Source of the DNA: a virus
DNA length: 26,321 nucleotides
Direction: 5' to 3' (one strand)
IMG/VR virus record: IMGVR_UViG_3300021599_000313
Location: 1 to 26,321 of that record
The notes under the pieces are model-generated. The model was not told the DNA's origin, did not search any database, and was given only the letters and a program-made list of their open reading frames with translations. This document shows, piece by piece, positions 3-25,434 of the stretch. A program made the position numbers and the translations under genes. Within the stretch, counting starts at the first letter, position 1. Every line of letters begins with the position of its first letter.

Positions 3-254
3 TTGCCCGTCAATTTTGACCAATTTCGTAAGAACCCAGTTGCTGCCGTTGCTTTTTGTATGCTGTTGGCTGTGGGGTATCTTTATATTGATTTGCGTTC
101 GGGGTACAAAGAACAAATTGAAAAAGCCAATGCAAAGATTGAGGCGTTGGATGTCAAGATTGACAAATTGAGTTATGCCCTTAAAAAGTCGGATTCGTGT
201 TTGGCAAGTGCCATGACCGAAATTCGTATCATGCAAACAATGAAAAAACTATGA
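3..254 (+). CDS. Inner-membrane spanin-like (Rz-like) protein, 83 aa, TTG start
   Basis: One membrane segment lies near residues 14-30, followed by a charged heptad-rich helix to the C-terminus. This is the N-in/C-out layout of an inner-membrane spanin, which would span the periplasm and pair with an outer-membrane lipoprotein to break the outer membrane at lysis. I chose the TTG at 3 because the first ATG (60) would cut into the membrane segment. The next gene begins in an ATGA overlap. If the window is circular, the lipoprotein gene at the far end overlaps this start by 17 bases, the expected spanin-pair arrangement. Role is inferred from topology and position; the start codon is at the window edge. 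Confidence 0.6.
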   Translation: MPVNFDQFRKNPVAAVAFCMLLAVGYLYIDLRSGYKEQIEKANAKIEALDVKIDKLSYALKKSDSCLASAMTEIRIMQTMKKL

Positions 255-7808: not shown

Positions 7809-8401
7809 ATATAGAATGGGTAAAAACAACGGACATTCATGCGAATGAAAACAATCCCAGAATTTTGAAAGATGACAAATTCAAGAAATTAGTACAATCA
7901 ATTAAGGATTTCCCCGAAATGTTGGAGATTCGCCCAATTGTTGTCAACAACGAAATGATGATATTGGGTGGCAACATGAGATTGAAAGCCATTCAAGAAA
8001 TCGGATTAAAAGAAATCCCCATCATCAAAGCGGAAAACCTAACCGAGGAACAAGAACGGGAATTTTTAATCAAAGACAATGTTGGATTTGGTGAATGGGA
8101 TTGGGATGCGTTGGCGAATGATTGGGATTACAAGGAGTTAAATGATTGGGCGTTGGATTTGCCAAAGATGTTAGATCCCGAACAATTTGGCGAAGATTTT
8201 AGTTTGGCCGATGGTGACAAAAGCCCGTTCCAACAAATGGCATTTACACTTGCAGATGAACAAGCGACACAAATTAAAAACGCGATTGCGGATATTAAGT
8301 TAACCGAAGAATACAAATACATGGAAGCGATGGGTAACGAAAATTCAAATGGGAATGCGTTGTATTTAATTATTATGCAATGGGCAGAGCAAAAGAAATA
8401 A
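7805..8401 (+). CDS. ParB-N-domain protein (ParB/Srx fold), 198 aa
   Basis: The first 95 residues match the ParB/sulfiredoxin N-terminal domain: IHANENNPR (11-19), then ILGGNMRLKA (53-62), the box that contacts nucleotide in ParB CTPases and ParB-like nucleases. The segment IKDNVGFGEWDW (89-100) often follows this domain in phage and mobile-element proteins. The C-terminal half is not recognised. The start is in an ATGA overlap with the HNH gene; the end overlaps the Mom-like gene by 22 bases, so the two are probably co-translated and may act together in DNA modification. Confidence 0.8.
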   Translation: MNIEWVKTTDIHANENNPRILKDDKFKKLVQSIKDFPEMLEIRPIVVNNEMMILGGNMRLKAIQEIGLKEIPIIKAENLTEEQEREFLIKDNVGFGEWDWDALANDWDYKELNDWALDLPKMLDPEQFGEDFSLADGDKSPFQQMAFTLADEQATQIKNAIADIKLTEEYKYMEAMGNENSNGNALYLIIMQWAEQKK

Positions 8402-9147
8402 TCGTCAAGGTGATACCATCAGCCATTGCAAATGCCTTTGTAAAAAAACATCATTATAGTGGCAAGGTTGTATCAAATAGCACATTGCATTTTGGATGTT
8501 TTTTGGATGGTAATTTACATGGTGTCATGAGTTACGGCAATCCATTAGACAAATCAAAAGTATTGCCAATGGTACAACCATGCAAATGGAATGAAATGTT
8601 GGAATTGAATCGAATGGCTTTTGATGAGTATTTGCCGAAGTATTCCGAATCTCGGTGCATCGCAATTAGTATTAAATTAATTAAGAAAAATGCTTCACAC
8701 ATTAAATGGATTTTATCATTTAGCGATGGCACACAATGTGGGGATGGTACAATATATCGGGCGACTGGATTTGTGTTGACAGCAATTAAAAAAAATCATA
8801 ATACTGTGCAATTGCCAAATGGCGAAGTAATACACAAAATGACCTTGGAAAGTAGCCCATTACAAAAACGACCCGAATTAAATGGTATGTCATATTACCA
8901 ATTGACTAATGGCAAATATAATTTTAATCAATATGTTGAACATGTTAATGGAAAAATTTTGGTTGGTTACCAATTGCGTTACATTTACCTAATTGACAAA
9001 ACTTGTCAAATCACAGTACCCGTTTTACCATTTAGCAAAATAGACGAAATGGGCGCGGGTATGTATAAGGGTGAAAAAATCACATTGAAAGAACGAACTT
9101 TGAGCAGGGTGGTCGAATCGAACGCCGATTTCAAACTGGATGCTTGA
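8380..9147 (+). CDS. mom: Mom-like DNA modification enzyme (GNAT-like), 255 aa
   Basis: Resembles the Mu Mom family, GNAT-related enzymes that convert adenine in phage DNA to a carbamoylmethyl form and so block host restriction. Seen are HHYSG (24-28), LHFGCFLDGNLHGVMSYG (36-53), ELNRMAFDEYLP (75-86), then LSFSDGTQCGDGTIYRATGF (112-131), the typical acyl-CoA region. The C-terminal 14 residues (242-255) are read from DNA complementary to a tRNA-Gly-like sequence on the other strand, so the natural C-terminus may once have been elsewhere. Overlaps the ParB-like gene by 22 bases. Confidence 0.8.
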   Translation: MGRAKEIIVKVIPSAIANAFVKKHHYSGKVVSNSTLHFGCFLDGNLHGVMSYGNPLDKSKVLPMVQPCKWNEMLELNRMAFDEYLPKYSESRCIAISIKLIKKNASHIKWILSFSDGTQCGDGTIYRATGFVLTAIKKNHNTVQLPNGEVIHKMTLESSPLQKRPELNGMSYYQLTNGKYNFNQYVEHVNGKILVGYQLRYIYLIDKTCQITVPVLPFSKIDEMGAGMYKGEKITLKERTLSRVVESNADFKLDA

Positions 9148-9172
9148 TGTGTTACCACTACACTAACCCCGC
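9103..9172 (-). tRNA. Degenerate tRNA-Gly(UCC)-like sequence on the minus strand
   Basis: Read on the minus strand, a cloverleaf is evident. The acceptor stem GCGGGGT/ACCCTGC is 7 of 7 (one G-T), the D stem GTGT/ACAC is perfect around AGTGGTA, the anticodon stem TCAAG/TTTGA is 5 of 5 (one G-T), and a TTCGATT T-loop is present. Faults are two mismatches in the T stem, a short variable loop, A instead of U at position 33, and no encoded CCA (the next bases are CAA). The apparent anticodon is UCC. It is the only minus-strand gene candidate and overlaps the last 45 bases of the Mom-like gene. A decayed tRNA or attachment remnant is likeliest. Confidence 0.5.
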
Positions 9173-9736: not shown

Positions 9737-10222
9737 ATGGAAATTTACAAGGACATCCAAGGTTATGAAGGCATTTACCAAGTTTCAAACTATGGGAATG
9801 TAAAATCGTTGAAGCGTGTAATTATGCGAAGCGATAACAGACCAAAAACAATTCCCGAAAAAATAAAAATAGGGATGCACAACAAGGGTTACAAGCGTGT
9901 TGCGTTATGCGATGTTAACGGAAATTCAAAAAGTTTTTATGTGCATAGATTGGTGATGGCAACATTTTTACATAAGAGTGATTTGTATGTGGATCACATC
10001 AATGGTGACAAAACAAATAATCATTTGGACAATTTGAGGTATGTAACCAATTCGGAAAACTTGACATTCAGAAACACAAACACGCAGTTTAAAAGCGAAC
10101 ACCCGTATGTGTATTATGACAAATCAAGGAATCAATACCGAGTTTACAAACATGGACCAAGGGTAAAGACATTTGAAGAAGCCAAAGCAATTGCAATATG
10201 TTTGTACGGACCACGGCAATAA
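9737..10222 (+). CDS. NUMOD4/HNH homing endonuclease, 161 aa
   Basis: Three modules are visible. NUMOD4 is at residues 3-25 (IQGYEGIYQVSNYGNVKSL). An HNH_3 nuclease with His70, VDHINGDKTNN (85-95) and NLRYVT follows. A C-terminal AP2-like DNA-binding segment starts near HPYVYYDKSRNQYR (122-135). Such free-standing homing endonucleases cut unmarked alleles and copy themselves. It lies between the two terminase genes with its own promoter, and its last 25 bases overlap the start of terL, so insertion was fitted to preserve terL. It may also bias packaging genes in mixed infections. Confidence 0.88.
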   Translation: MEIYKDIQGYEGIYQVSNYGNVKSLKRVIMRSDNRPKTIPEKIKIGMHNKGYKRVALCDVNGNSKSFYVHRLVMATFLHKSDLYVDHINGDKTNNHLDNLRYVTNSENLTFRNTNTQFKSEHPYVYYDKSRNQYRVYKHGPRVKTFEEAKAIAICLYGPRQ

Positions 10223-11355
10223 ACAAATTACTGAAACTTGACAAGTTTGTCAAAGGTGTTCAGGGCGGTTCGTCTGCGGGAAAAACTTTTGGTATCATTC
10301 CAATTGAAATTGACTATGCAATCAAAAACCCAAAGACAGAAACATCCATTGTTGCAGAAAGTATCCCACACTTAAAAAGGGGGGCGATCCGTGATTTCAA
10401 AAAAATCATGAAGGAAACGAACCGATGGAACGATAGGAATTGGAACGCCAGTGATTTCAAATACACCTTTACAAACGAAAGTTTTATTGAATTTTTTAGT
10501 GCGGATAATAGTGCCAAGTTGAGGGGGGCGAGACGGGATAGGTTATACATCAATGAGTGTAATAACATTGATTTCAATTCATACACAGAACTTGCCATGC
10601 GTACCAAACAATCCATATTCTTGGATTGGAATCCCGCCAACGAATTTTGGTTTCATAGCGAAATCAAAAACGATGACAATGTAAACTTTATCATCCTAAC
10701 TTACATGGACAATGAAGCAGCCCCACAAAGTGCGGTTGATTTCATTTTGAAAGCCAAGGAAAAAGCAAAGACGAGTAAGTATTGGGAAAATTGGCATAGA
10801 GTATACGGGCTTGGTGAGATTGGAAACCTCCAAGGGGTTATATTCAGCAATTGGCAAACCATAGACAAGATTCCCGAAGATGCAAGGTTACTTGGTTGTG
10901 GTGTCGATTTCGGTTATACAAACGACCCTACGGCAATTGTGGCCGTATATGAGTACAATGGCCAACGCATCGTTGATGAGGTCGCATATCGCACGGGGAT
11001 GCTTAATTCGGATATTGCAAAGGCATTACCCAACTTTGTGCCAGTGTATGCGGATAGCGCAGAACCAAAGTCAATTGATGAGATAAAAAGATACGGCATC
11101 AGAATCAAGGGCGTAACCAAGGGAAAGGATTCAATTAACTACGGAATTCAAATCATGCAATCCCAATCTTATTTGGTTACATCCACATCAACAAACCTAA
11201 TTAAAGAATTACGGAATTATTGTTGGGATAGTGATGCCCAGGGGCGAACCAACAACACACCAATTGGAACGGATCACGGGATTGATTCATGGCGTTATCA
11301 CGAAATGATGGCGTTAGGTATTCGTTCAAACTTTGGTCAATACGATATTCGCTAA
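10198..11355 (+). CDS. terL: Terminase large subunit, 385 aa
   Basis: ATPase and nuclease motor that packages phage DNA. The ATPase half has a Walker A-like GGSSAGKT (23-30) and a Walker B region RLYINE (115-120); a coupling-type segment LDWNP (142-146) follows. The nuclease half has GVDFGYTNDPTA (235-246), VYADSAEP (283-290) and GIDSWRYHEM (361-370), giving the three expected acidic residues Asp237, Asp286 and Asp363. It is somewhat shorter than the usual 420-500 residues but has both domains. The start overlaps the HNH gene by 25 bases and reads MFVRTTAINKLLKL. Confidence 0.93.
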   Translation: MFVRTTAINKLLKLDKFVKGVQGGSSAGKTFGIIPIEIDYAIKNPKTETSIVAESIPHLKRGAIRDFKKIMKETNRWNDRNWNASDFKYTFTNESFIEFFSADNSAKLRGARRDRLYINECNNIDFNSYTELAMRTKQSIFLDWNPANEFWFHSEIKNDDNVNFIILTYMDNEAAPQSAVDFILKAKEKAKTSKYWENWHRVYGLGEIGNLQGVIFSNWQTIDKIPEDARLLGCGVDFGYTNDPTAIVAVYEYNGQRIVDEVAYRTGMLNSDIAKALPNFVPVYADSAEPKSIDEIKRYGIRIKGVTKGKDSINYGIQIMQSQSYLVTSTSTNLIKELRNYCWDSDAQGRTNNTPIGTDHGIDSWRYHEMMALGIRSNFGQYDIR

Positions 11356-11401: not shown

Positions 11402-12031
11402 ATGAAAGTATTAATAGCGTGTGAGTATAGTGGTGCAGTACGGGATGAATTTATCCGTATGGGCCATGATGCCATGTCGTGTGATTTACTACCCACCGAC
11501 AAACCTGGGCCACATTACGAAGGCGATGTTTTTGACATAATCAACGATGGATGGGATATGATGATTGCATTTCCACCATGCACACATTTGGCGTTGAGTG
11601 GTTCACAATGGTTTGCAGAAAAACAAAAAGATGGAAGGCAAGATGAAGCGTTGCAATTTGTACGGGATTTGATGAACGCAGACATTCCCAAAATTGCTAT
11701 TGAAAACCCAATCGGAATCATAAGTTCACGAATAAAAAAATACGACCAAATTATCCAACCATATATGTTTGGTGATCCATTTCAAAAATCAACTTGTTTA
11801 TGGTTGAAAGGATTACAACCATTGATTGCAACCGATGTTGTAGACAAAGGCGAGTTCAAAGAATGGATTGATAAGAACGGCAAAAAGAAACGCCAAGCCA
11901 CATGGTATGCGGAAACATGGGGGAAAGGTGATTTGCGTTGGAAGATACGCAGTCAAACATTTCCAGGGATAGCCAAGGCCATGGCAGAACAATGGAGTGG
12001 GCCACAATTAATTCAAACAAAACTATTATGA
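11402..12031 (+). CDS. C5-cytosine-methyltransferase-like protein, 209 aa
   Basis: The N-terminus MKVLIACEYSGAVRDEF fits the SAM-binding motif I. AFPPCTHLALSG (56-67) contains the Pro-Pro-Cys that attacks C6 of cytosine in C5 methyltransferases, and AIENPIG (99-105) matches the ENx motif. At 209 residues it lacks a normal target-recognition domain, so it is a minimal member, with unclear specificity or activity. With the Mom-like enzyme it suggests two layers of DNA protection. I chose the ATG at 11402; an upstream in-frame ATG at 11369 lies within the promoter. Confidence 0.8.
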   Translation: MKVLIACEYSGAVRDEFIRMGHDAMSCDLLPTDKPGPHYEGDVFDIINDGWDMMIAFPPCTHLALSGSQWFAEKQKDGRQDEALQFVRDLMNADIPKIAIENPIGIISSRIKKYDQIIQPYMFGDPFQKSTCLWLKGLQPLIATDVVDKGEFKEWIDKNGKKKRQATWYAETWGKGDLRWKIRSQTFPGIAKAMAEQWSGPQLIQTKLL

Positions 12032-12471
12032 CAAGCCAATACCAAGAAATACACAACTTAAAACAAGAAATTAAGCGACTGCGATTGTTAGTAGTTGAAA
12101 ACAAGATGGCCCATGACCGCGAAGTGCGATTGCTCAAACAAGAAATTGTCAAACCCAAAACGGACATAAACGATAACCCCACCACATGGGGTGAAGTGTT
12201 ACGGGTTATTTGTGAGGTAATGGACATGACACCCGACCAAATCATCACCAAGTCAAGGAAGCGAAAACCAATGTATGCCCGTCATATGTTCAACCACATT
12301 TGCAGAAAAAGATTGAACATGACATTCATGGAGATTGGCAACATTTCACACCTTGACCATTCCACCATCATTTCATCAGTTCGGGAATTTACAGATATTT
12401 TGGTAACCGATAAGGAGATGCAAAGGTATCACGCCCAGGTACACACCATACTACATGAAAGGTTAGTATAA
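12028..12471 (+). CDS. DnaA domain IV-like DNA-binding protein, 147 aa
   Basis: An N-terminal coiled coil (residues 5-42) is joined to a C-terminal helical domain like DnaA domain IV. TPDQIITKSRKRKPMYARHM (68-87) then HLDHSTIISSV (108-118) corresponds to the DnaA-box-reading signature (compare GRDHTTVLHA). No AAA+ ATPase is present, so it can bind DnaA-box-like sites but not open DNA, and might recruit, compete with or sequester host DnaA. It is coupled to the methyltransferase-like gene by ATGA, within the tail operon. Confidence 0.82.
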   Translation: MTSQYQEIHNLKQEIKRLRLLVVENKMAHDREVRLLKQEIVKPKTDINDNPTTWGEVLRVICEVMDMTPDQIITKSRKRKPMYARHMFNHICRKRLNMTFMEIGNISHLDHSTIISSVREFTDILVTDKEMQRYHAQVHTILHERLV

Positions 12472-12502: not shown

Positions 12503-13246
12503 ATGATTGAAACAAAAACCATCATTGTACCCACGGAGTTGAAGGATGTCAAGTTGCATCAAATGTTGGCGTACAATGAATTGAAGGCCGATATGGATGA
12601 AACACAAAGGCAGTTGGAATCGGTTGCCATTTTTTGTGAATTGACCATGAGCGAGGTGAAGGCCATCCCATTTGACATTCTCAAAGATTGTGTGATTAAG
12701 ATTTCCAAGATGTTGGAATCAAAACCCGTGTTCACACCCAGGTTCAAAATGAACGGCATCAAATACGGCTTCATCCCAAACATGGATGAATTGTCAACGG
12801 GTGAATTTATCGACATTGAAACATACCAAAAAACCCCCAATGATATTTGGAAGGTGCTATCTGTTTTGTATCGCCCCATTACCAAAGAAGGGCAAAACGG
12901 AAGGTATGAAATTGCCCCGTACAATGCGGAGTTAAACAACGATTTCAAGGACATGGATTGCAACACGGCGTTTGGTGCGTTGCTTTTTTTTTGGAGTTTA
13001 GGAATCGACTTGTTGAATTCTACCCAGAAGTATTTGGCGATGGTGAGGAGGGGGGAAGTGTCGATGAAGTACGACTTACCGAAAAATGGGGATGGTTTGG
13101 AATGGTCTACCGACTTGCTAACCGAAGTTTCCTCAACCTTGAAGAAGTATATACAAAACCCATTCACTCCGCTTGTATGTGGATCGCTTACGAAAGCGAC
13201 ATTGCGAAGATGGAACAAAAAGCAATTAAACAACGATGAACAATAA
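12503..13246 (+). CDS. Tail assembly chaperone-like protein, zero frame, 247 aa
   Basis: Starts MIETKTIIVP and has the features of Bacteroidota phage tail-chaperone-like proteins: KLHQMLAYNELK, then NGIKYGFIPNMDELSTGEFI (around residue 90), then a segment FGALLFFWSLGIDLLN (about 155-170) and KNGDGLEWSTDLLTE near the end. A T9 run at 12984-12992 falls at LLFF and allows a -1 slip into a second long frame. I used the ATG at 12503; another at 12485 lies in the hairpin. Such chaperones coat the tape measure during tail assembly, as lambda gpG does. Confidence 0.7.
   Translation: MIETKTIIVPTELKDVKLHQMLAYNELKADMDETQRQLESVAIFCELTMSEVKAIPFDILKDCVIKISKMLESKPVFTPRFKMNGIKYGFIPNMDELSTGEFIDIETYQKTPNDIWKVLSVLYRPITKEGQNGRYEIAPYNAELNNDFKDMDCNTAFGALLFFWSLGIDLLNSTQKYLAMVRRGEVSMKYDLPKNGDGLEWSTDLLTEVSSTLKKYIQNPFTPLVCGSLTKATLRRWNKKQLNNDEQ
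12984..12992 (+). other. Slippery T9 run, candidate -1 frameshift site
   Basis: Nine T residues, read in the zero frame as CTT TTT TTT TGG. A -1 slip gives TTT TTT TTG GAG and continues to a TGA at 13237-13239. A heptamer of seven T satisfies the X-XXY-YYZ rule for tandem slippage. No downstream stem was obvious by eye. Confidence 0.6.
12985..13239 (+). CDS. -1 frame extension of the tail-chaperone gene (frameshift product part)
   Basis: This frame is open through the last quarter of the zero-frame gene. It encodes an acidic stretch (FYPEVFGDGEEGGSVDEV) followed by EKWGWFGMVYRLANRSFLNL and a Lys-rich end. The WGWxxxxYxLA pattern with a following helix resembles a protein family I recall beside tail chaperones in Bacteroidota phages. 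Its stop forms an ATGA overlap with the next gene at 13236, the junction used repeatedly in this window. Reached by -1 slippage, the fused product would have about 245 residues, analogous to lambda gpGT. Independent initiation at the TTG at 12991 is an alternative. Confidence 0.6.
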   Translation, partial: FFLEFRNRLVEFYPEVFGDGEEGGSVDEVRLTEKWGWFGMVYRLANRSFLNLEEVYTKPIHSACMWIAYESDIAKMEQKAIKQR

Positions 13247-13727
13247 TCACATAGGAACGGCATTTGAGGTGATGAAAGACATTGCCGATTTGGAGGGGTG
13301 GAACTATTCACACGGCACATTAACCGAATTTGATTTTAAGGCGTTTTTGGTATTCCCGTTGATGCATTGTTCAATTCAATCGGTGGCATTGACAGACCAG
13401 GTGGCAACCATCCAAATGAATATCATGGTGGCGGATAGGGTGAACTTCTTGAAAACGGAAAACGAACAAGAAAATTTAATCACCGAGTATTCCCAATATG
13501 GATACACCGAGAATCAAAACTATGCAAACATTTTGCAAGATTTGTATGTGAGGTTTTCAAAGGGGTTATGGCGTACGGAACAAGATTATTTTAACCAAAT
13601 CCAATACATACGCCCCATTACTTTTCAACCATTTATGGAAACATTGGATTCAGTATTGGCGGGTTACCAAATCACAGTTGGAATTGAGTTAATTAACCCA
13701 TGGGTTACTGATGGCGATTGCGTATAA
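13236..13727 (+). CDS. Hypothetical tail-region protein, 163 aa
   Basis: A soluble mixed alpha/beta protein without cysteine or membrane motifs; HCSIQSVALTDQVATIQMNI (about residues 44-63) looks like a beta meander and the second half has PITFQPFMETLDSVLAGYQI. It is coupled to the frameshift product by ATGA and overlaps the next gene by 17 bases. Its place between a tail-chaperone-like gene and a gp10-like connector gene suggests a neck or tail-terminator protein. Not recognised as a family. Confidence 0.6.
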   Translation: MNNNHIGTAFEVMKDIADLEGWNYSHGTLTEFDFKAFLVFPLMHCSIQSVALTDQVATIQMNIMVADRVNFLKTENEQENLITEYSQYGYTENQNYANILQDLYVRFSKGLWRTEQDYFNQIQYIRPITFQPFMETLDSVLAGYQITVGIELINPWVTDGDCV

Positions 13728-14259
13728 AAATAGCGAACAAGTTGTTGCGGAGTATTCCAACAAATGGGCGATTGCGTGTCGTACCTTATTGGAGGTAAAA
13801 CGCCCACGAACATCAATCCGTGCCAAGTGGAAAAAGGTTGGTGAAGGGTGGACACCCATTTCGGTATCCAAAAAAACATTCCGTGGTAATTATGTGGCAT
13901 CTGGGCAATTGGTGAATTCTATTCAACCCGCACCCAAAGGGTTGGACATGGGAATTACCATGAACAAAACCGCCGATTATGTACAGAACGGAAGAAAGCC
14001 AGGCAAGGGCATTCCGTTGGCATCAATGCGGAATTGGACAAAGATGAAACGCATTCAACCACGGGATATGGGAACGGGGCGATTCAAAGGCAAGGCCGAT
14101 GAAAACGCAATGCGATTCATGATGAACAGAAAGATTAAACACTTTGGTATTGAACCATTCCCATTTGTAACAATGGCACGAAAGGAGATATTACCATCAT
14201 TCAATAAGGCATTAACCAAGGCGATGGCCCAAGACATAAAAGCAAGATTCAAACGATGA
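13711..14259 (+). CDS. HK97 gp10-like/virion morphogenesis protein, 182 aa
   Basis: Basic protein with VASGQLVNSI (62-71) and TADYVQNGRKPGKGIPLASM (87-106), resembling the SGxLxxSI and AxYxxxxxxG signatures of gp10/tail-completion proteins that cap or attach tails. The C-terminal half is helical and basic, ending near FVTMARKEILPSFNKALTK. It would sit at the head-tail joint. The end overlaps the next tail gene by four bases. Confidence 0.65.
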   Translation: MAIAYKNSEQVVAEYSNKWAIACRTLLEVKRPRTSIRAKWKKVGEGWTPISVSKKTFRGNYVASGQLVNSIQPAPKGLDMGITMNKTADYVQNGRKPGKGIPLASMRNWTKMKRIQPRDMGTGRFKGKADENAMRFMMNRKIKHFGIEPFPFVTMARKEILPSFNKALTKAMAQDIKARFKR

Positions 14260-14999: not shown

Positions 15000-15236
15000 G
15001 ATTCGTTCTTGTTTAATGGCGTTCACCGAACCACAAACCAAATCAGCGGTGAAAAGTATTCACAACCGATTTACAAACAAACCGACCTTGCACAAGCATG
15101 GACATACGGCGTTCCAATTACCACCCCTTATTTGGTTAATAGTACCCAGGTGATGACAGTAAACACGGATTGGATCACGCAAAACGATGTTGATGTGGTT
15201 GAGCAAATTTTTTATTACGGCATCGGGATTTATTGA
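15000..15236 (+). pseudogene. In-frame continuation of the tail gene after TAG (78 codons)
   Basis: Same frame as 14256-14999, from GAT just after the TAG to TGA at 15234-15236. It reads DSFLFNGVHRTTNQISGEKY and later VMTVNTDWITQNDVDVVEQI, which looks like the natural C-terminal domain of the preceding protein and not random translation. The first in-frame ATG (at 15150) is too far in to start it. It would be made only by readthrough, or it is a remnant. The next gene starts inside its end. Confidence 0.6.
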
Positions 15237-17922
15237 AGGCCAAGAATGTTGCATTGAAAAGTTGGAAGCGTTGGGCGGTACATTCAGTTACCAAGTACCC
15301 GTGGATTTATTCCAAGATGAATCCGTACCCCTTACAAGGCAATTAAAGGACTTGATGAACCTTGCCACCATTTGGACAGATTACACCCAAGATTTCCAAA
15401 TACCCGCATCGGACACTAACAACCAAATCTTTGCCAATTGGTTTGATGAAAACATGGTCATCGTGGGTTGGAATCCCAACATTGGTAAAAACGCAACCAT
15501 ATTCATCAACGGATTACCCGTATTTGAAGGTCGTGTTGAATTGATTGGTTGTAAATTCAAGGATGGGTTGCCACAATTGTACAACATCATTTTTTACGGC
15601 ACGACCAAAAAATTGTTGGATGCGTGGGGCGAAACATTGATGAACGAAGTTGATTGGAGTGAATACGAACACACGGCCAATTACACAAACATATTGAGTT
15701 CATGGGATCAAAATTTATTGGGTGGTGATATTTTATGGCCGATTGCAGATTACAACCAACAATGGAGATATTCCACATTGACGGGAGTAAACGGAAACAT
15801 CTTAAAACCAAGGGGTGTTGAGGTGGATGATTTACGCCCCGCGATTCGCCTTCGTGAAATGTTGGTTACTGCATTCAATAGCAATGATATTGGATACACA
15901 TTGACGGGTTCATTCCTTACAAGGCCCGAAATGGATGATTTGTATGTGTTGCCAATGCAAACGGCGGGGCCATTGTACGATCCCGAATACACATTGCCAG
16001 GAACTTGCCATGCTTCCAATTCACCACAAACATTTACGGCAACATCGGGAGTATTGACATACGCCCAATTGATATTCCCAACCATCGTTTCAAACCCATC
16101 GGGGAACTACAACAATACAACGGGGGATTACACTTGTAACCGAGGGGGTTATTATCAGTTTTCATTGGATGTGTTGAGTATTATTGCCCCAGGTGTTGCG
16201 TTGCAAAGTTTGGAAATCGCCTTTTTCCTAAACGGGCGTAAAGAATTTGCACCAAGTCAATTGATATTTACAACAACATCGGCAGCGGTGGGGGCAAGTT
16301 TCAACCAAAGATTAAATTCGGGGGATGTGGTTTCGGTGCGTTATCGTGCAACGGGTGGTTGGTCAACAATTGCCATCACTTTTAAGTGTTACAAAGCCCC
16401 ACAAGGTATTAACGGAACGAGCATCCGCATGGAAGATGCCATGCCACAAAAACCCATCAAAGATTTCATCAATGGGGTGTTGCAAGGTTTCAACTGCATA
16501 TTAGTTCCAACGGGTGAAAAGACAATTGAAATCCACAATTTGGCGGATTGGTTGGCGTTGGGAACAACAAAGAATTGGACATCGTATGTGGATATTAAGG
16601 ACATTCAGCACGACAAATTACCAATACCACGCCATGTGAGTATGAGCCACCAAGAATCAACATGCTTGGCCAATGCGTACTACAAACAAATTAACAAACG
16701 GGAATACGGATCAATTAAGTTCATGCCGTTAATTGATTACCCAACGGAGGAATTTAACATTGAAACACCATTCCATGTGATTGCACCCCAGGCGATGAAC
16801 CAAGTCAATTTGAATGGGCAAATAGTTCGTAAAACGGAATTGAACATCCCCGTGTTTTTGGATACCGACTTCAAACCCGTGCAACAAGATTACACCTTGT
16901 TTTACTATGGAGGTAAACAATCGGTTTCCGATGTGTGGTATTTCAACAACAACATTCAAATCGTGATGCCGTTGATGACACCTTATTCGGACTATCCAAC
17001 AATATCAAATAGTTATTCAAATGCGTTCGGATTGGAACTTTCTTTGCGTGGCGATGCACCCACAAAAACGATGTATGATTTGTATTGGACAGAATACCTC
17101 ACCCGTATGTATTCAACGCAATCAAGGGTGGTTAAAATGACTGCGGTGTTACCCGTGGGCGAGTGGTTGAATCTTGAATTGAACGACACCATCGCCATTT
17201 CATCGAATTACTACAAAATCCAATCCATCCAATACGATATGTTGACGGAGATTGCCAACCTGGAATTGGTAACATACCCAGATGTGGAAATTATGAGGTT
17301 TACAACCACGGGGCAACGGCCCGATTTTACAAACCCATTGCCAACACCAAGTGGAGAAACATATTTGAAGGATTATTCGGTTGCAAAAGGTATCATGAAT
17401 TCGTACAAGTTCAACGGCCAAGATTATTTGGACACCAACCAAGATGAGGACTACAACCAAAATAGCGTGTCGACATTGGTTCATCAAGTTGAGAACTTGC
17501 AATCCATCGTGCAGTTTAACCAAATCACGATGTACAACAACAACCCCGCAACTCGCACAACGGATTCTACAATTTGGGATACCATCCCAATGGAAGAAGA
17601 AGAATCAATCGGGTATGTGCAGAACATCACGGCCACATTGAACCCATCAAAATATGTATGCACCGATGGTGGCCAATACAAGTTCACGGCGATGGCTTCG
17701 TTTGGGCAAAGTGGAAACAAGTCAATTGAATATGCAATCCAAATCAACGGCATCAACACCACGGCATATGCTGCCACGGATTCAAATTTCCATAGTATTC
17801 AAATTGACACTATTTTGGATTTGGCCCCCACGGATGAAGTAACATTTGTTTGGAAACTTTACACGGGTGGGGCGCACACCATCACCATTTTGAAATCCAA
17901 CTTTTTAATACTCAAAAAATGA
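15187..17922 (+). CDS. Tail tip/baseplate-like protein with two C1q-like inserts, 911 aa
   Basis: The segment starting FSYQVPVDLFQDESVPLTRQ, followed by DYTQDFQIPAS and FANWFDEN, matches a large Bacteroidota phage tail protein I recall from tail tips. Residues about 279-402 form a beta sandwich with a GGYYQFSLDV signature like C1q/TNF domains. A second such domain (about 795-911, CTDGGQYKFTAMASF) ends the protein. These could bind host glycans or receptors. The start is uncertain: the ATG at 15187 overlaps the previous frame by 50 bases, while TTG at 15262 or 15271 would be shorter and lie closer to the conserved core. Confidence 0.75.
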   Translation: MLMWLSKFFITASGFIEGQECCIEKLEALGGTFSYQVPVDLFQDESVPLTRQLKDLMNLATIWTDYTQDFQIPASDTNNQIFANWFDENMVIVGWNPNIGKNATIFINGLPVFEGRVELIGCKFKDGLPQLYNIIFYGTTKKLLDAWGETLMNEVDWSEYEHTANYTNILSSWDQNLLGGDILWPIADYNQQWRYSTLTGVNGNILKPRGVEVDDLRPAIRLREMLVTAFNSNDIGYTLTGSFLTRPEMDDLYVLPMQTAGPLYDPEYTLPGTCHASNSPQTFTATSGVLTYAQLIFPTIVSNPSGNYNNTTGDYTCNRGGYYQFSLDVLSIIAPGVALQSLEIAFFLNGRKEFAPSQLIFTTTSAAVGASFNQRLNSGDVVSVRYRATGGWSTIAITFKCYKAPQGINGTSIRMEDAMPQKPIKDFINGVLQGFNCILVPTGEKTIEIHNLADWLALGTTKNWTSYVDIKDIQHDKLPIPRHVSMSHQESTCLANAYYKQINKREYGSIKFMPLIDYPTEEFNIETPFHVIAPQAMNQVNLNGQIVRKTELNIPVFLDTDFKPVQQDYTLFYYGGKQSVSDVWYFNNNIQIVMPLMTPYSDYPTISNSYSNAFGLELSLRGDAPTKTMYDLYWTEYLTRMYSTQSRVVKMTAVLPVGEWLNLELNDTIAISSNYYKIQSIQYDMLTEIANLELVTYPDVEIMRFTTTGQRPDFTNPLPTPSGETYLKDYSVAKGIMNSYKFNGQDYLDTNQDEDYNQNSVSTLVHQVENLQSIVQFNQITMYNNNPATRTTDSTIWDTIPMEEEESIGYVQNITATLNPSKYVCTDGGQYKFTAMASFGQSGNKSIEYAIQINGINTTAYAATDSNFHSIQIDTILDLAPTDEVTFVWKLYTGGAHTITILKSNFLILKK

Positions 17923-18086
17923 TATCATTGATAATAAAATTAGCACAATCCCAAGAATGGTACGGGGTTTCCGATGCGGTGGAAATCGCCAAGGGCAAAA
18001 ACCAATACAAACAAACTTGGAAACAAACCACAAAACACATTAAAAGAAAAATCAAGTCATGGCAGATGAAATCGAATACGAAGTAA
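17919..18086 (+). CDS. Small basic tail-region protein, 55 aa
   Basis: Starts in an ATGA overlap with the tail-tip gene and overlaps the tape-measure start by 28 bases. The N-terminus MISLIIKLAQSQEWYG is hydrophobic, and the rest is Lys/Gln/Thr-rich with IAKGKNQYKQTWKQ. The coupling to genes on both sides supports translation. Function unknown; a small tail assembly factor is possible. Confidence 0.5.
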   Translation: MISLIIKLAQSQEWYGVSDAVEIAKGKNQYKQTWKQTTKHIKRKIKSWQMKSNTK

Positions 18087-19903
18087 AAGTTGATACATCG
18101 GAGGTAAAACAAGCGGAAAACGCATTTACACGATTTACCAACAAAGCATCCCAAGCGTTCAGCGGGTTGGGTGGGAAACTCAAAGATGTTGGGGATAAGT
18201 TCGGGGAATTGCCAGGTGTGGTTGGTAACGCATCCACATCATTGATGGGATTAGGCCGTTCAATGTTGGCATTGGTAGCAAACCCGATTGGTGCGGTCAT
18301 CGCTGCATTGGTGGGGATATTTGTTGCACTCAAAGAATCGTTATCCAAAACCGAAGATGGCATGGATGCCGTTGCCCGTGTTACGGGTGCATTTTCGGCG
18401 TTGGTGAAACCATTGGTGGAAACTGTATCTTCATTGGCCGTTGTGTTGGTTGATGGATTGGGTGCAGCGTTGGAAATGGTATCAAGTTTGTTTGGTGGCG
18501 CAGCGGATGAAGGTCGTAAACTTGCCGATTTGAACGACCAATTGGAGGATCAAGAAATTGCATTGGCCGAACTTCGTGCAAACCAAAATAAGCAATTGGC
18601 ACAAGCCCGTGAATTGTTATCGGATTCAAACGCAGCGTTGGGTGATAGAAAAAAAGCCCTCGACCAAGTACGGAAAAGTGAAACCGATTTGGCATCAAAG
18701 GAGTTGAAATTTGCCCAAGATAGATTGAAGGCGGCGAAACTTGACCAACAATTGAATGGGGCAACGGAGGCGAGTAAAAAGGCAATAAGTGAAGCAACAA
18801 TTGGCGTGGCAAATGCTGAAACCGAATTGGCAGCGAAACGCAGATTGTTTAATCGTGAAGAAAAGAAATTGAACGCGGAAGCGGAACAAGCGGCGAAGGA
18901 ACGGGCAGCAAAAGCGAAGGAATACACCGACCAAAGAACAAGCGCAGCCAAAGACATTCGTTCAGCGGAACAAGCCAATTACTTGGCGGGTATCCAAGAC
19001 GATAAAAAAAGGTCGGAGGAACAAGCCCGATTGGAAAAGGAAAACACCATTCGTGAAATCAAAGCGGGTGAGTATACCACAAAGGAAAAGAATCGTTTGA
19101 AGGAAGCGGCGGAAAAGAAATACCAATTGGATTTGGCGAAGATTGAAATGGATGCCGAAAAAAAACGGCAAGATGAATTGAAAGCGTTTCAAGACAAAGC
19201 GGCCCAAGATGAACAAAAGTTCATTGATGATGCGTTTGCATTGGAACAATTGAAAGCCACCCAGACCATTCAAAACGAAAAAGATTTACAAGCGGCGTTG
19301 CAACAATTGGAAATTGACCGACTGAACAACCAAATTCAATCCCGCAAAGATTACGGGCAAAGTACCACCGATTTGGAATTAACATTGGCCAATAAGCGAA
19401 TCGACATTGCCAAAAACGAGGAAGCCCAAAAGAAGGATTTAGCACAAAAAGAATTTGACACCAAAATGGCGTTGTATGAAGCCACATCAAATGCGTTGGG
19501 GGCAATTGGTAATGCCATCGGTGAAGAAACCGCAGCGGCCAAAGGATTGGCGATTGCGGGTGCAATCATTGATACTTATGCGGGTGCAACCAAGGCATTG
19601 TCAGCGGGTGCGGGAACACCATTGGGATACATTAACGCAGCGGCCATCATTGCCACGGGTTTTGCGAATGTGCGTAAAATGACTGCAACACCAATCCCAG
19701 GTGCAAACGATACATCATCCGCACCAAGCATGGGGCCAAGCGTGTCAATTGTGGGTGGTTCGGCCGATCCATCGGCACAACTTGCAAAGAGTTTGGCATC
19801 GCAACAACAAAAACCAATCAAGGCGTACACCGTGGCAACGGACATGAGTACCCAACAAGCCCTTGACCGCCGTATCCAACAAAATGCAACATTCCCAGGG
19901 TAA
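18059..19903 (+). CDS. Tape measure protein, 614 aa
   Basis: It sets tail length and occupies the tail lumen. The N-terminus (DEIEYEVKVDTSEVKQAENA) is the usual tape-measure start. A hydrophobic helix lies at about residues 70-92 (ANPIGAVIAALVGIFVALKE), long Ala/Glu/Lys/Gln coiled coil spans about 150-470, and a Gly/Ala-rich membrane-active segment (AAAKGLAIAGAIIDTYAGAT) is near 490-545. The 614 residues predict a short tail of perhaps 90 nm at about 0.15 nm per residue. Unusually, it lies after the tail-tip gene instead of before it. Confidence 0.85.
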   Translation: MADEIEYEVKVDTSEVKQAENAFTRFTNKASQAFSGLGGKLKDVGDKFGELPGVVGNASTSLMGLGRSMLALVANPIGAVIAALVGIFVALKESLSKTEDGMDAVARVTGAFSALVKPLVETVSSLAVVLVDGLGAALEMVSSLFGGAADEGRKLADLNDQLEDQEIALAELRANQNKQLAQARELLSDSNAALGDRKKALDQVRKSETDLASKELKFAQDRLKAAKLDQQLNGATEASKKAISEATIGVANAETELAAKRRLFNREEKKLNAEAEQAAKERAAKAKEYTDQRTSAAKDIRSAEQANYLAGIQDDKKRSEEQARLEKENTIREIKAGEYTTKEKNRLKEAAEKKYQLDLAKIEMDAEKKRQDELKAFQDKAAQDEQKFIDDAFALEQLKATQTIQNEKDLQAALQQLEIDRLNNQIQSRKDYGQSTTDLELTLANKRIDIAKNEEAQKKDLAQKEFDTKMALYEATSNALGAIGNAIGEETAAAKGLAIAGAIIDTYAGATKALSAGAGTPLGYINAAAIIATGFANVRKMTATPIPGANDTSSAPSMGPSVSIVGGSADPSAQLAKSLASQQQKPIKAYTVATDMSTQQALDRRIQQNATFPG

Positions 19904-23307: not shown

Positions 23308-23653
23308 GCACATCAACGGAACATCCACCAACATCACATTCACACCATTTGTGGATTTTGAGGGTGTAGCGACTGCAAAAATTGAGGTGTGGCACAAACC
23401 CACCAAAACAATGGTACAAGTGACCACGGCGTGTGTAAAGTCCTATTCATTCATCACCATGGCATTGCCTACATTGACATCAATCAATGCGGTGGCAAAG
23501 AATACCGATGAATTGTTGTTTCGGGTTTACAATGGCAATGTATTGATGTGGGAGGTATTGGGATATTGGATTACGGGAACAACAAACATTTACAACACTT
23601 GGAAGCAATTTACAACAACGGCCCCAGGTACACCTAATTGGAAAACATTATGA
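23306..23653 (+). CDS. Hypothetical beta-rich structural-region protein, 115 aa
   Basis: A short beta-rich protein (NGTSTNITFTPFVDFEGV, then TAKIEVWHKPTKTMVQVT) with no motif or membrane segment, C-terminal KQFTTTAPGTPNWKTL. It lies between the tail-tube-like gene and the portal, its TGA overlaps the portal ATG, and a terminator lies just upstream, so its own initiation signal must lie in the 37 bases between. A virion decoration or neck protein is plausible; function not recognised. Confidence 0.55.
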   Translation: MHINGTSTNITFTPFVDFEGVATAKIEVWHKPTKTMVQVTTACVKSYSFITMALPTLTSINAVAKNTDELLFRVYNGNVLMWEVLGYWITGTTNIYNTWKQFTTTAPGTPNWKTL

Positions 23654-25434
23654 GTTTAGAATTTATACAACTTCAATCATACACCGCACCATCCATTATT
23701 GAGCAAAAGAACAAAGATTGGGTGCAATACGGCGATGATAACAACTATTATCAGTATTTGATTGATTTGTACCATTCATCACCAACCAACAATGCGTGTA
23801 TCAAAGGCACAGTTGACCAAATTTTTGGTAAGGGGTTGGAAGTAACCAAGGCATCACGGGATTTGGCGGGATACATTGAATTCAAAAAGATGTTTTCCAA
23901 CGATTGCATCCGTGCCATTGCCATGGATTTGAAAATGTTGGGCCAAGCATCGTTCCAATTGGTGAAGTCAAAGGATCGCAAAAAGTATGTACAAGCCAAA
24001 CACTTTCCACAACAAACCCTTCGCCCCGCAAAGTGCAACGAAAAGGGTGAAATTGAAAAGTATTATTATTGCCCCGATTGGGCGAATTTGAAGCGTGGCC
24101 ATACGCCAATTGAGTTTAGGGCATTTGGTTACGACCAAAACGCAAACGAATGTATCCTTACAATCAAACCATATTCAACGGGTTCTTTTTACTTCGCACC
24201 CGTGGATTACCAAGGAGGTACGCAATATGCCAACTTGGAAGCGGAGATTTCCAATTTCCACATCAATAACATCATGAATGGTTTGGCACCATCAATGTTG
24301 ATTAACTTCAATAACGGGCAACCACCCGCCGAAGTGAAAGATACTGTGGAAGCCCAAATCAAACAAAAGTTTGGTGGTTCATCCAATGCAGGTCGGTTTA
24401 TTATTTCATGGAACGATGGTCAAGATTCCAAAGCGGATATCACACCCGTTCAATTAAGTGATGCCCACAACCAATACCAATTTTTGAGTGGTGAGGCGAT
24501 GCAAAAAATTATGGTATCGCACCGCGTGGTTTCACCAATGTTGTTGGGTATTAAGGATAACACTGGATTTGGTAACAATGCCGATGAAATGAAAACCGCA
24601 TCCATCTTGTTTGACAATGTTGTGGTACGACCATTCCAACGATTGATTATTGATGCCGTTACCCAGGTGTTGAACTTCAATGGGTACAATTTGAATCTTT
24701 ATTTCAAGACCTTGCAACCCCTTGAATTCACCGATTTGAGTGGTAACATCATTGACGATGAAACCCGTGAAGAAGAAACGGGCGTATCATTGTCAGCCGA
24801 AAAAAAAAAGATTGAATTGAATGATATGACCATCGAGGATGAAAATTCTTGGTTGGAACATTTGAAAGGCAAGGGCGAAACAATTAACACGGATGAGTGG
24901 GAACTTATTGATGTTACGGAAGTTACCGATGCCGATGAAGAATTAAAATTTAACTTGGCGTATGAAAACCCCAATAAAAAAAGTGATGACGATAAAGGGG
25001 TGTACAAAATCCGTTATCGGTACGGCCCTAATTTCGTATCCAACAATTCAAGGCAGTTTTGTACTGCAATGGTTCAAGAATCCAAAGGGGGAGTAATTTA
25101 TCGCCGTGAAGATATTATTGCCATGGGCGATGCGGGTGTCAACGGACAATTTGCACCACAAGGTGAATCGACCTATTCAATTTGGAAATACAAAGGCGGG
25201 GTTAATTGCCACCACCGATGGGAACGATTGACATTTAGACGCAAACAAGTCAAAGGAAAGTTTTTGCCAAAACAACCTGGTGAAACGGGGGATAATAGAA
25301 ATTTGGAAAACTACAACGAGGTTTCAAACAAATCAGCGGATAAGGCGGGGGTGCCATTTTCACCAAGCGGGTGGGATACTGCCAAAACAAGGCCCATTGA
25401 TATGCCAAACAAAGGATCATTAAAGAACAAATAA
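23650..25434 (+). CDS. Portal protein with C-terminal head-morphogenesis-like module, 594 aa
   Basis: Portals form the DNA channel at the capsid vertex. Residues 1-400 carry the portal pattern: WVQYGDDNNYYQYLIDLYHS, FGKGLEV, and MQKIMVSHRVVSPMLLGI, followed by FNGYNLNLYFK. Residues about 450-594 form an extra module: RYRYGPNFVSNNSRQFCTAM, IYRREDIIAMG, then YSIWKYKGGVNCHHRWERLT. This pattern (Arg-x-Phe-Cys, Cys-His-x-x-Trp) resembles the C-terminus of phage head morphogenesis proteins, suggesting a fusion. Start at 23650 is in an ATGA overlap; MENIMSLEF upstream is possible. Confidence 0.8.
   Translation: MSLEFIQLQSYTAPSIIEQKNKDWVQYGDDNNYYQYLIDLYHSSPTNNACIKGTVDQIFGKGLEVTKASRDLAGYIEFKKMFSNDCIRAIAMDLKMLGQASFQLVKSKDRKKYVQAKHFPQQTLRPAKCNEKGEIEKYYYCPDWANLKRGHTPIEFRAFGYDQNANECILTIKPYSTGSFYFAPVDYQGGTQYANLEAEISNFHINNIMNGLAPSMLINFNNGQPPAEVKDTVEAQIKQKFGGSSNAGRFIISWNDGQDSKADITPVQLSDAHNQYQFLSGEAMQKIMVSHRVVSPMLLGIKDNTGFGNNADEMKTASILFDNVVVRPFQRLIIDAVTQVLNFNGYNLNLYFKTLQPLEFTDLSGNIIDDETREEETGVSLSAEKKKIELNDMTIEDENSWLEHLKGKGETINTDEWELIDVTEVTDADEELKFNLAYENPNKKSDDDKGVYKIRYRYGPNFVSNNSRQFCTAMVQESKGGVIYRREDIIAMGDAGVNGQFAPQGESTYSIWKYKGGVNCHHRWERLTFRRKQVKGKFLPKQPGETGDNRNLENYNEVSNKSADKAGVPFSPSGWDTAKTRPIDMPNKGSLKNK

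Follow-up and report, generated by a model that had tools for sequence, protein, structure and literature searches.

In the virus record analysed here (the window, taken at its full 26,321 bases), one gene keeps two reading frames open over the same DNA, which raises the question of whether both frames encode protein and, if so, how the second of them is reached. An earlier note had read this gene as a tail chaperone with a programmed −1 shift at a run of nine T residues, and the layout that it described is correct: the run lies at 12984-12992, the zero frame is intact to its TAA at 13244, and the −1 frame is also open after the run, giving a doubly open stretch of about 244 nt where about 245 bases had been claimed (Table 1). 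The ATGA overlap with the next gene is formed, as the note held, by the stop of the −1 frame, and the start of that gene is the place where the zero and −1 frames both terminate. The dual-coded overlap spans 84 codons, which is unusually long. The two predicted products have computed values of 28,467 Da and pI 5.45 for G (247 aa) and 28,529 Da and pI 4.98 for GT (245 aa), with alternative ends that differ in computed pI (9.17 for the zero-frame tail, 5.14 for the −1 domain). Because their masses differ by only 62 Da, the two forms are not separable by size, so a search for two size forms, which the note had suggested, would fail in this phage.

Table 1. Features of the window around the doubly open gene, with positions on the window.
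Feature	Position	Strand	Remarks
Terminase large subunit	10198..11355	+	Upstream of the candidate chaperone gene
Zero-frame ORF (G-like)	12503..13246	+	247 aa; ATG at 12503, TAA at 13244-13246; phrog_32199, E 2e-16; model pLDDT 80
Parts of the G-like ORF	Residues 1-163; 164-247		Shared core; zero-frame tail (pI 9.2)
T9 run, putative slippage site	12984..12992	+	Zero-frame codons CTT TTT TTT TGG; in-frame heptamer T_TTT_TTT inside
−1 frame T-like domain	12991..13239	+	82 aa past the run; TGA at 13237-13239; phrog_38404 match
Dual-coded stretch	12993..13236	+	Purifying selection indicated on both frames
Next gene	13236..13727	+	163 aa; ATG at 13236 overlaps the −1 frame TGA (ATGA)
Head-tail or tail completion-like protein	13711..14259	+	phrog_29822; a relative weakly matches Neck1/tail completion
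Tape measure protein	18059..19903	+	phrog_1538 tail length tape measure, E 3.7e-12; downstream, same gene run

The −1 peptide, searched alone, has a match to phrog_38404 at E 1.2e-5; it corresponds to a conserved domain (FFLxFRxR...KWGWYxSxYxLA...) whose start coincides exactly with the T run. A profile scan returned 80 diverse loci, 79 of them readable, and in these the domain takes the form F.xF[RK]xR...KWGWYxSxYxLA and the +1 frame is closed within 0-5 codons; in every family the domain is conserved from its first residue. On the zero-frame side, all 19 of 19 relatives match phrog_32199. Alignment of both frames against phage proteins, a check proposed earlier, found homologues for each, with −1 coding conserved in all relatives, and the impression that the −1 frame reads like a protein rather than random sequence is borne out by the conserved domain and by the matches to phrog_38404 and to Nonlabens phages. 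In the model of the zero-frame product the core is structured as far as about residue 150, and a long helix passes through the slip site; the T domain is modelled as helical with modest confidence. Three viral proteins (A0A516L611, A0A6J5MY57 and A0A6J7XA66) are single chains that match both the G and the T models, which suggests that they are natural in-frame G-T fusions. Conservation thus strongly supports −1 recoding at the T run that joins the G-like and T-like parts, and on this comparative evidence we regard a frame change combined with dual coding as almost certain.

The run itself is also conserved, with at least nine T at the junction in the window phage and all relatives examined. 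Among 164 unique near and middle-distance loci it is exactly T9 in 163 and T10 in one, and all 79 readable diverse loci have at least nine T (60 T9, the others T10 or T11, a count that includes locus L350, whose run was split by the script). When the diverse loci were reduced to 37 lineages that are at most 60% identical, the T run sought in homologous loci was present at nine or more in 37 of 37 (28 T9, 9 T10), and runs of 7 or 8 were never seen at this site. Other T runs of at least 7 in the same loci of these lineages are mostly of 7 (17 T7, 2 T8, 4 T9 and 1 T10). Flanking codons vary among the lineages while the run stays at nine or more: a pre-run codon other than NTT (Tyr, Ser or Asp) is paired with a post-run TTN codon in 3 of 3 cases, against 4 of 29 otherwise (Fisher p 0.007), so that nine T are kept, a rule that partly follows from the neighbouring amino acids (Leu/Val/Ile before, Trp/Tyr after). 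From the minimum of nine in all 37 lineages, the shorter runs elsewhere in the loci and the compensation in the flanks, there appears to be selection on run length itself, and the conserved feature, as read from these alignments, is a length of at least nine, beyond a mere slippery heptamer.

Since it is this length rather than a heptamer that is conserved, RNA polymerase slippage is favoured over a ribosomal −1 shift. In many bacterial genomes the threshold for transcriptional slippage has been put at nine, the length from which A/T runs are selected against, and the keeping of nine among homologs has been read as a sign that such slippage is purposeful (Baranov et al. 2005, PMC1088944); likewise, the sites given for transcriptional realignment include 'Tn, n > 8' (Antonov et al. 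2013, PMC3711429). The site resembles those of Shigella mxiE and Thermus dnaX (PMC1088944) in having an A/T run of at least nine, conserved in length, with no phase requirement. The mxiE gene is also a precedent for U insertion, in which one inserted nucleotide fuses two overlapping ORFs (PMC1088944), as we propose here. Unlike mxiE and dnaX, the present case is a phage structural-assembly gene in which slippage is predicted from sequence, and a search of the open-access literature turned up no tail chaperone gene described as using transcriptional slippage. Most transcripts and ribosomes would stay in the zero frame and yield G, with residues 164-247 as its tail, and a fraction would shift at the T run to yield GT, made of the 163-residue core and the 82-residue −1 domain. 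The shift would come mainly from RNA polymerase slipping on T9 and adding one U (U10), which would bring the T domain into frame; a transcript one U short would instead encode a 165-aa core ending in FFGV.

A ribosomal −1 frameshift, in which P- and A-site tRNA-Phe re-pair by one base on U_UUU_UUU and the extra T's are incidental, would also fit several of these observations. The heptamer T_TTT_TTT is in frame at every site in the 37 lineages, the direction is always −1, and the G/GT genes found in the literature searched all use ribosomal shifts, including that of lambda, where this mechanism is known and the shift lies near the 3' end of g (PMC5009743). Such a heptamer needs 7 T, yet none of the 37 lineages has 7 or 8, and the flanks apparently compensate to keep nine. 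The stimulators that commonly, though not necessarily, accompany ribosomal shifts were also looked for around the run. Across the 37 lineages, RNA structure is not above shuffles either over 60 nt downstream (mean z +0.30) or over 28 nt upstream (mean z +0.07), which agrees with the earlier remark that no obvious stem accompanies the run. No downstream stem or pseudoknot was found as a stimulator, and a terminator-like upstream hairpin (12966-12982) that had been flagged in a scan of the window is neither conserved nor above shuffles. Shine-Dalgarno-like sites occur at 1 of 27 gene starts in the window, and none lies upstream of the T run as a stimulator; with no structure and no such sites, the usual ribosomal stimulators are missing. 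We consider a ribosomal shift possible but doubtful, and transcriptional rather than ribosomal slippage fairly probable.

Chance is excluded as the cause of the doubly open stretch: when codons were redrawn synonymously from window usage so as to preserve the −1 protein, a zero frame open across the whole overlap appeared in 0.0006 of trials, and when the zero-frame protein was preserved instead, the −1 frame was open for at least 80 codons in 0.0088 of trials. We counted substitutions by parsimony on trees of family A (that of the window, 95 sequences) and family B (42 sequences) and expressed their rates relative to upstream synonymous changes, taken as neutral; parsimony undercounts most at these fast upstream sites, so the ratios are conservative. 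Changes that affect only the zero frame, being silent in −1, have rates of 0.28 of neutral in A and 0.46 in B, and those that affect only the −1 frame, being silent in zero, have rates of 0.11 (A) and 0.17 (B), for comparison with 0.10 (A) and 0.12 (B) in the single-coded upstream part. Silent change is reduced along the entire overlap in family A. In family B the reduction is strongest in the first 24 codons and extends to some degree to the short single-coded end (0.67), which makes the result for B less clear-cut. As for zero-frame stops arising from −1-silent changes, family A has none where 14.4 would be expected (p 6e-7), and family B has 2 where 11.2 would be expected (p 0.001), the members of both families being related sequences. 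Control stops in the third frame of the overlap show no depletion (15 vs 13.9 in A, 19 vs 10.6 in B), and upstream stop controls lie at 0.79 to 1.17 of expectation. A test of substitutions over the overlap had been among the checks proposed, and its outcome indicates that both frames are under purifying selection, the −1 frame more strongly. The earlier note had further taken the leucine codons as a sign that the zero frame leads; the codons are as it described (4 CTT, 1 CTC and 1 TTG in the −1 frame, mostly TTG/TTA in the zero-frame tail), but the conclusion drawn from them is unsupported, with overall codon adaptation similar in both frames and the −1 frame the more constrained.

The same measurements bear on whether the −1 domain alone is functional and the zero-frame tail a tolerated by-product, an idea compatible with either frameshift mechanism. 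The tail does differ in length between families, from 6 to 85 codons, and in locus L382 it extends only 6 codons past the query match. The reduced rate of changes that alter only the zero frame and the avoidance of zero-frame stops, which the third-frame controls do not share, argue against this idea, as does the tail length over the 37 lineages, whose median is 55 codons where the null gives 6, and we consider it improbable.

Annotation of the cultured Nonlabens phages P12024L and P12024S offers a further alternative. Both phages have tblastn matches to the G and the T parts (−1 peptide 3e-5) and, as in the window, carry T9 at the junction; unlike in the window, their zero-frame tail is only about 27 codons long, and the two parts are annotated as separate hypothetical proteins (ORFs 40/41 in P12024L, ORFs 38/39 in P12024S). 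The annotated start of P12024L ORF 41 is an ATG that overlaps the zero-frame stop, as would be expected if the T domain were an unfused, separate protein, translated from a start that belongs to it or by re-initiation. That start (P12024L_41, L067 6522-6689) removes the conserved beginning of the T domain, which reaches upstream to the T9. More generally, the T-like domain has no start codon of its own ahead of its conserved part, the first −1 frame ATG in the window falling within the KWGWFGM motif. That conservation of the −1 frame sets in with the residue directly after the run, ahead of any usable start, and that single-chain proteins match both halves make a separate protein very unlikely. 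Homopolymers are prone to sequencing error, but T9 recurs across many metagenome assemblies made independently of one another and in two cultured phages, which, together with substitution patterns that point to selection in both frames, leaves virtually no room for the T run being a sequencing or assembly error in a gene with one real frame.

As for function, the part of the tail-chaperone claim that stands is the architecture of two overlapping ORFs fused by a frame shift; the role itself we infer. No characterised tail chaperone was matched by sequence in Pfam, NCBIfam or PDB, so the role rests on architecture and position; fold searches with both the G and T models gave helical-bundle matches only, which are uninformative, and a match to phrog_166 'tail protein' is weak (E 0.05). 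The G/GT gene and the tape measure gene belong to one run of genes, the tape measure lying four to five genes downstream: terminase is followed by G/GT, a protein of about 155 aa, another of about 178 aa that matches phrog_29822, one or two larger proteins and the tape measure, and then by protease, capsid and portal; from terminase to tape measure this order is identical in three other families. As in gpG/gpGT of phage lambda, a core and a core-plus-T fusion would be made from a single start, with a T domain in the −1 frame that lacks its own start and a gene upstream of the tape measure. The slippery heptamer of lambda is GGGAAAG, in contrast to the run of at least nine T here, and no homology was detected between the two systems. 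Several genes precede the tape measure gene here, whereas the two are adjacent in lambda, and the T domain here overlaps a long zero-frame tail that appears to be selected. By analogy with lambda, G would coat the tape measure protein and GT would recruit the tail tube protein, the two being required at a fixed ratio. We think it likely, from architecture and gene order, that the gene encodes a G/GT-type tail assembly chaperone pair, and the proposal as a whole, with such a pair and a frame change at the T run mainly by RNA polymerase slippage, is moderately probable.

Scans of viral contigs returned near relatives and, at 30-40% identity, several families, and scans of genome contigs found no relatives in host prophages. 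Judging from the Nonlabens relatives, the host group is probably Bacteroidota, which the missing Shine-Dalgarno signal fits. Flavobacterium phage 6H gp10, a distant structural match, was rejected as a counterpart: it has no T9, and its −1 frame stops directly after a T6C. Between gp10 and gp09 of 6H there is an unannotated ORF (L303 10048-10360, minus strand), which follows gp10 in the −1 frame and resembles a short domain of T type, without a T9 run.

We observed several other features in the window. Directly upstream of the chaperone gene, the end of an ORF at 12028-12471 resembles, by eye, a DnaA C-terminal DNA-binding domain (MTFMEIGNISHLDHSTIISSVREF). A gene resembling NUMOD4/HNH homing endonucleases (9737-10222) is inserted right before the terminase large subunit gene, and a tRNA-Gly (TCC) on the minus strand (9102-9172) overlaps the 3' end of an ORF at 8380-9147. 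A 911-aa tail protein (15187-17922) has a C1q-like domain (PF00386, E 2.8e-8, residues 293-387). The portal gene (23638-25434) includes an A10 run at 24800-24809, a slippage-prone length that the portal match crosses in one frame.

G/GT frameshifting is a classic conserved recoding that has been described as ribosomal. We put it at somewhat better than even that RNA polymerase slippage on at least nine T, instead of ribosomal frameshifting, sets the chaperone ratio in a very large group of tailed phages, which probably infect Bacteroidota, and that the T domain is overprinted with a functional second tail whose charge is opposite. If this is true, two proteins of near-equal length share a core and differ in the frame that supplies their C-terminal third, and transcription can fix this assembly ratio by means of at least nine T with no other signal. 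The gene would also provide a clean example of a long dual-coded region in which selection has been measured per frame. For annotation, we suggest that at least nine T between a YGFIPN..LYRP core and a KWGWY domain may serve as a rule for recognising the pair in hundreds of phages whose T part is currently overlooked or annotated as a separate protein.
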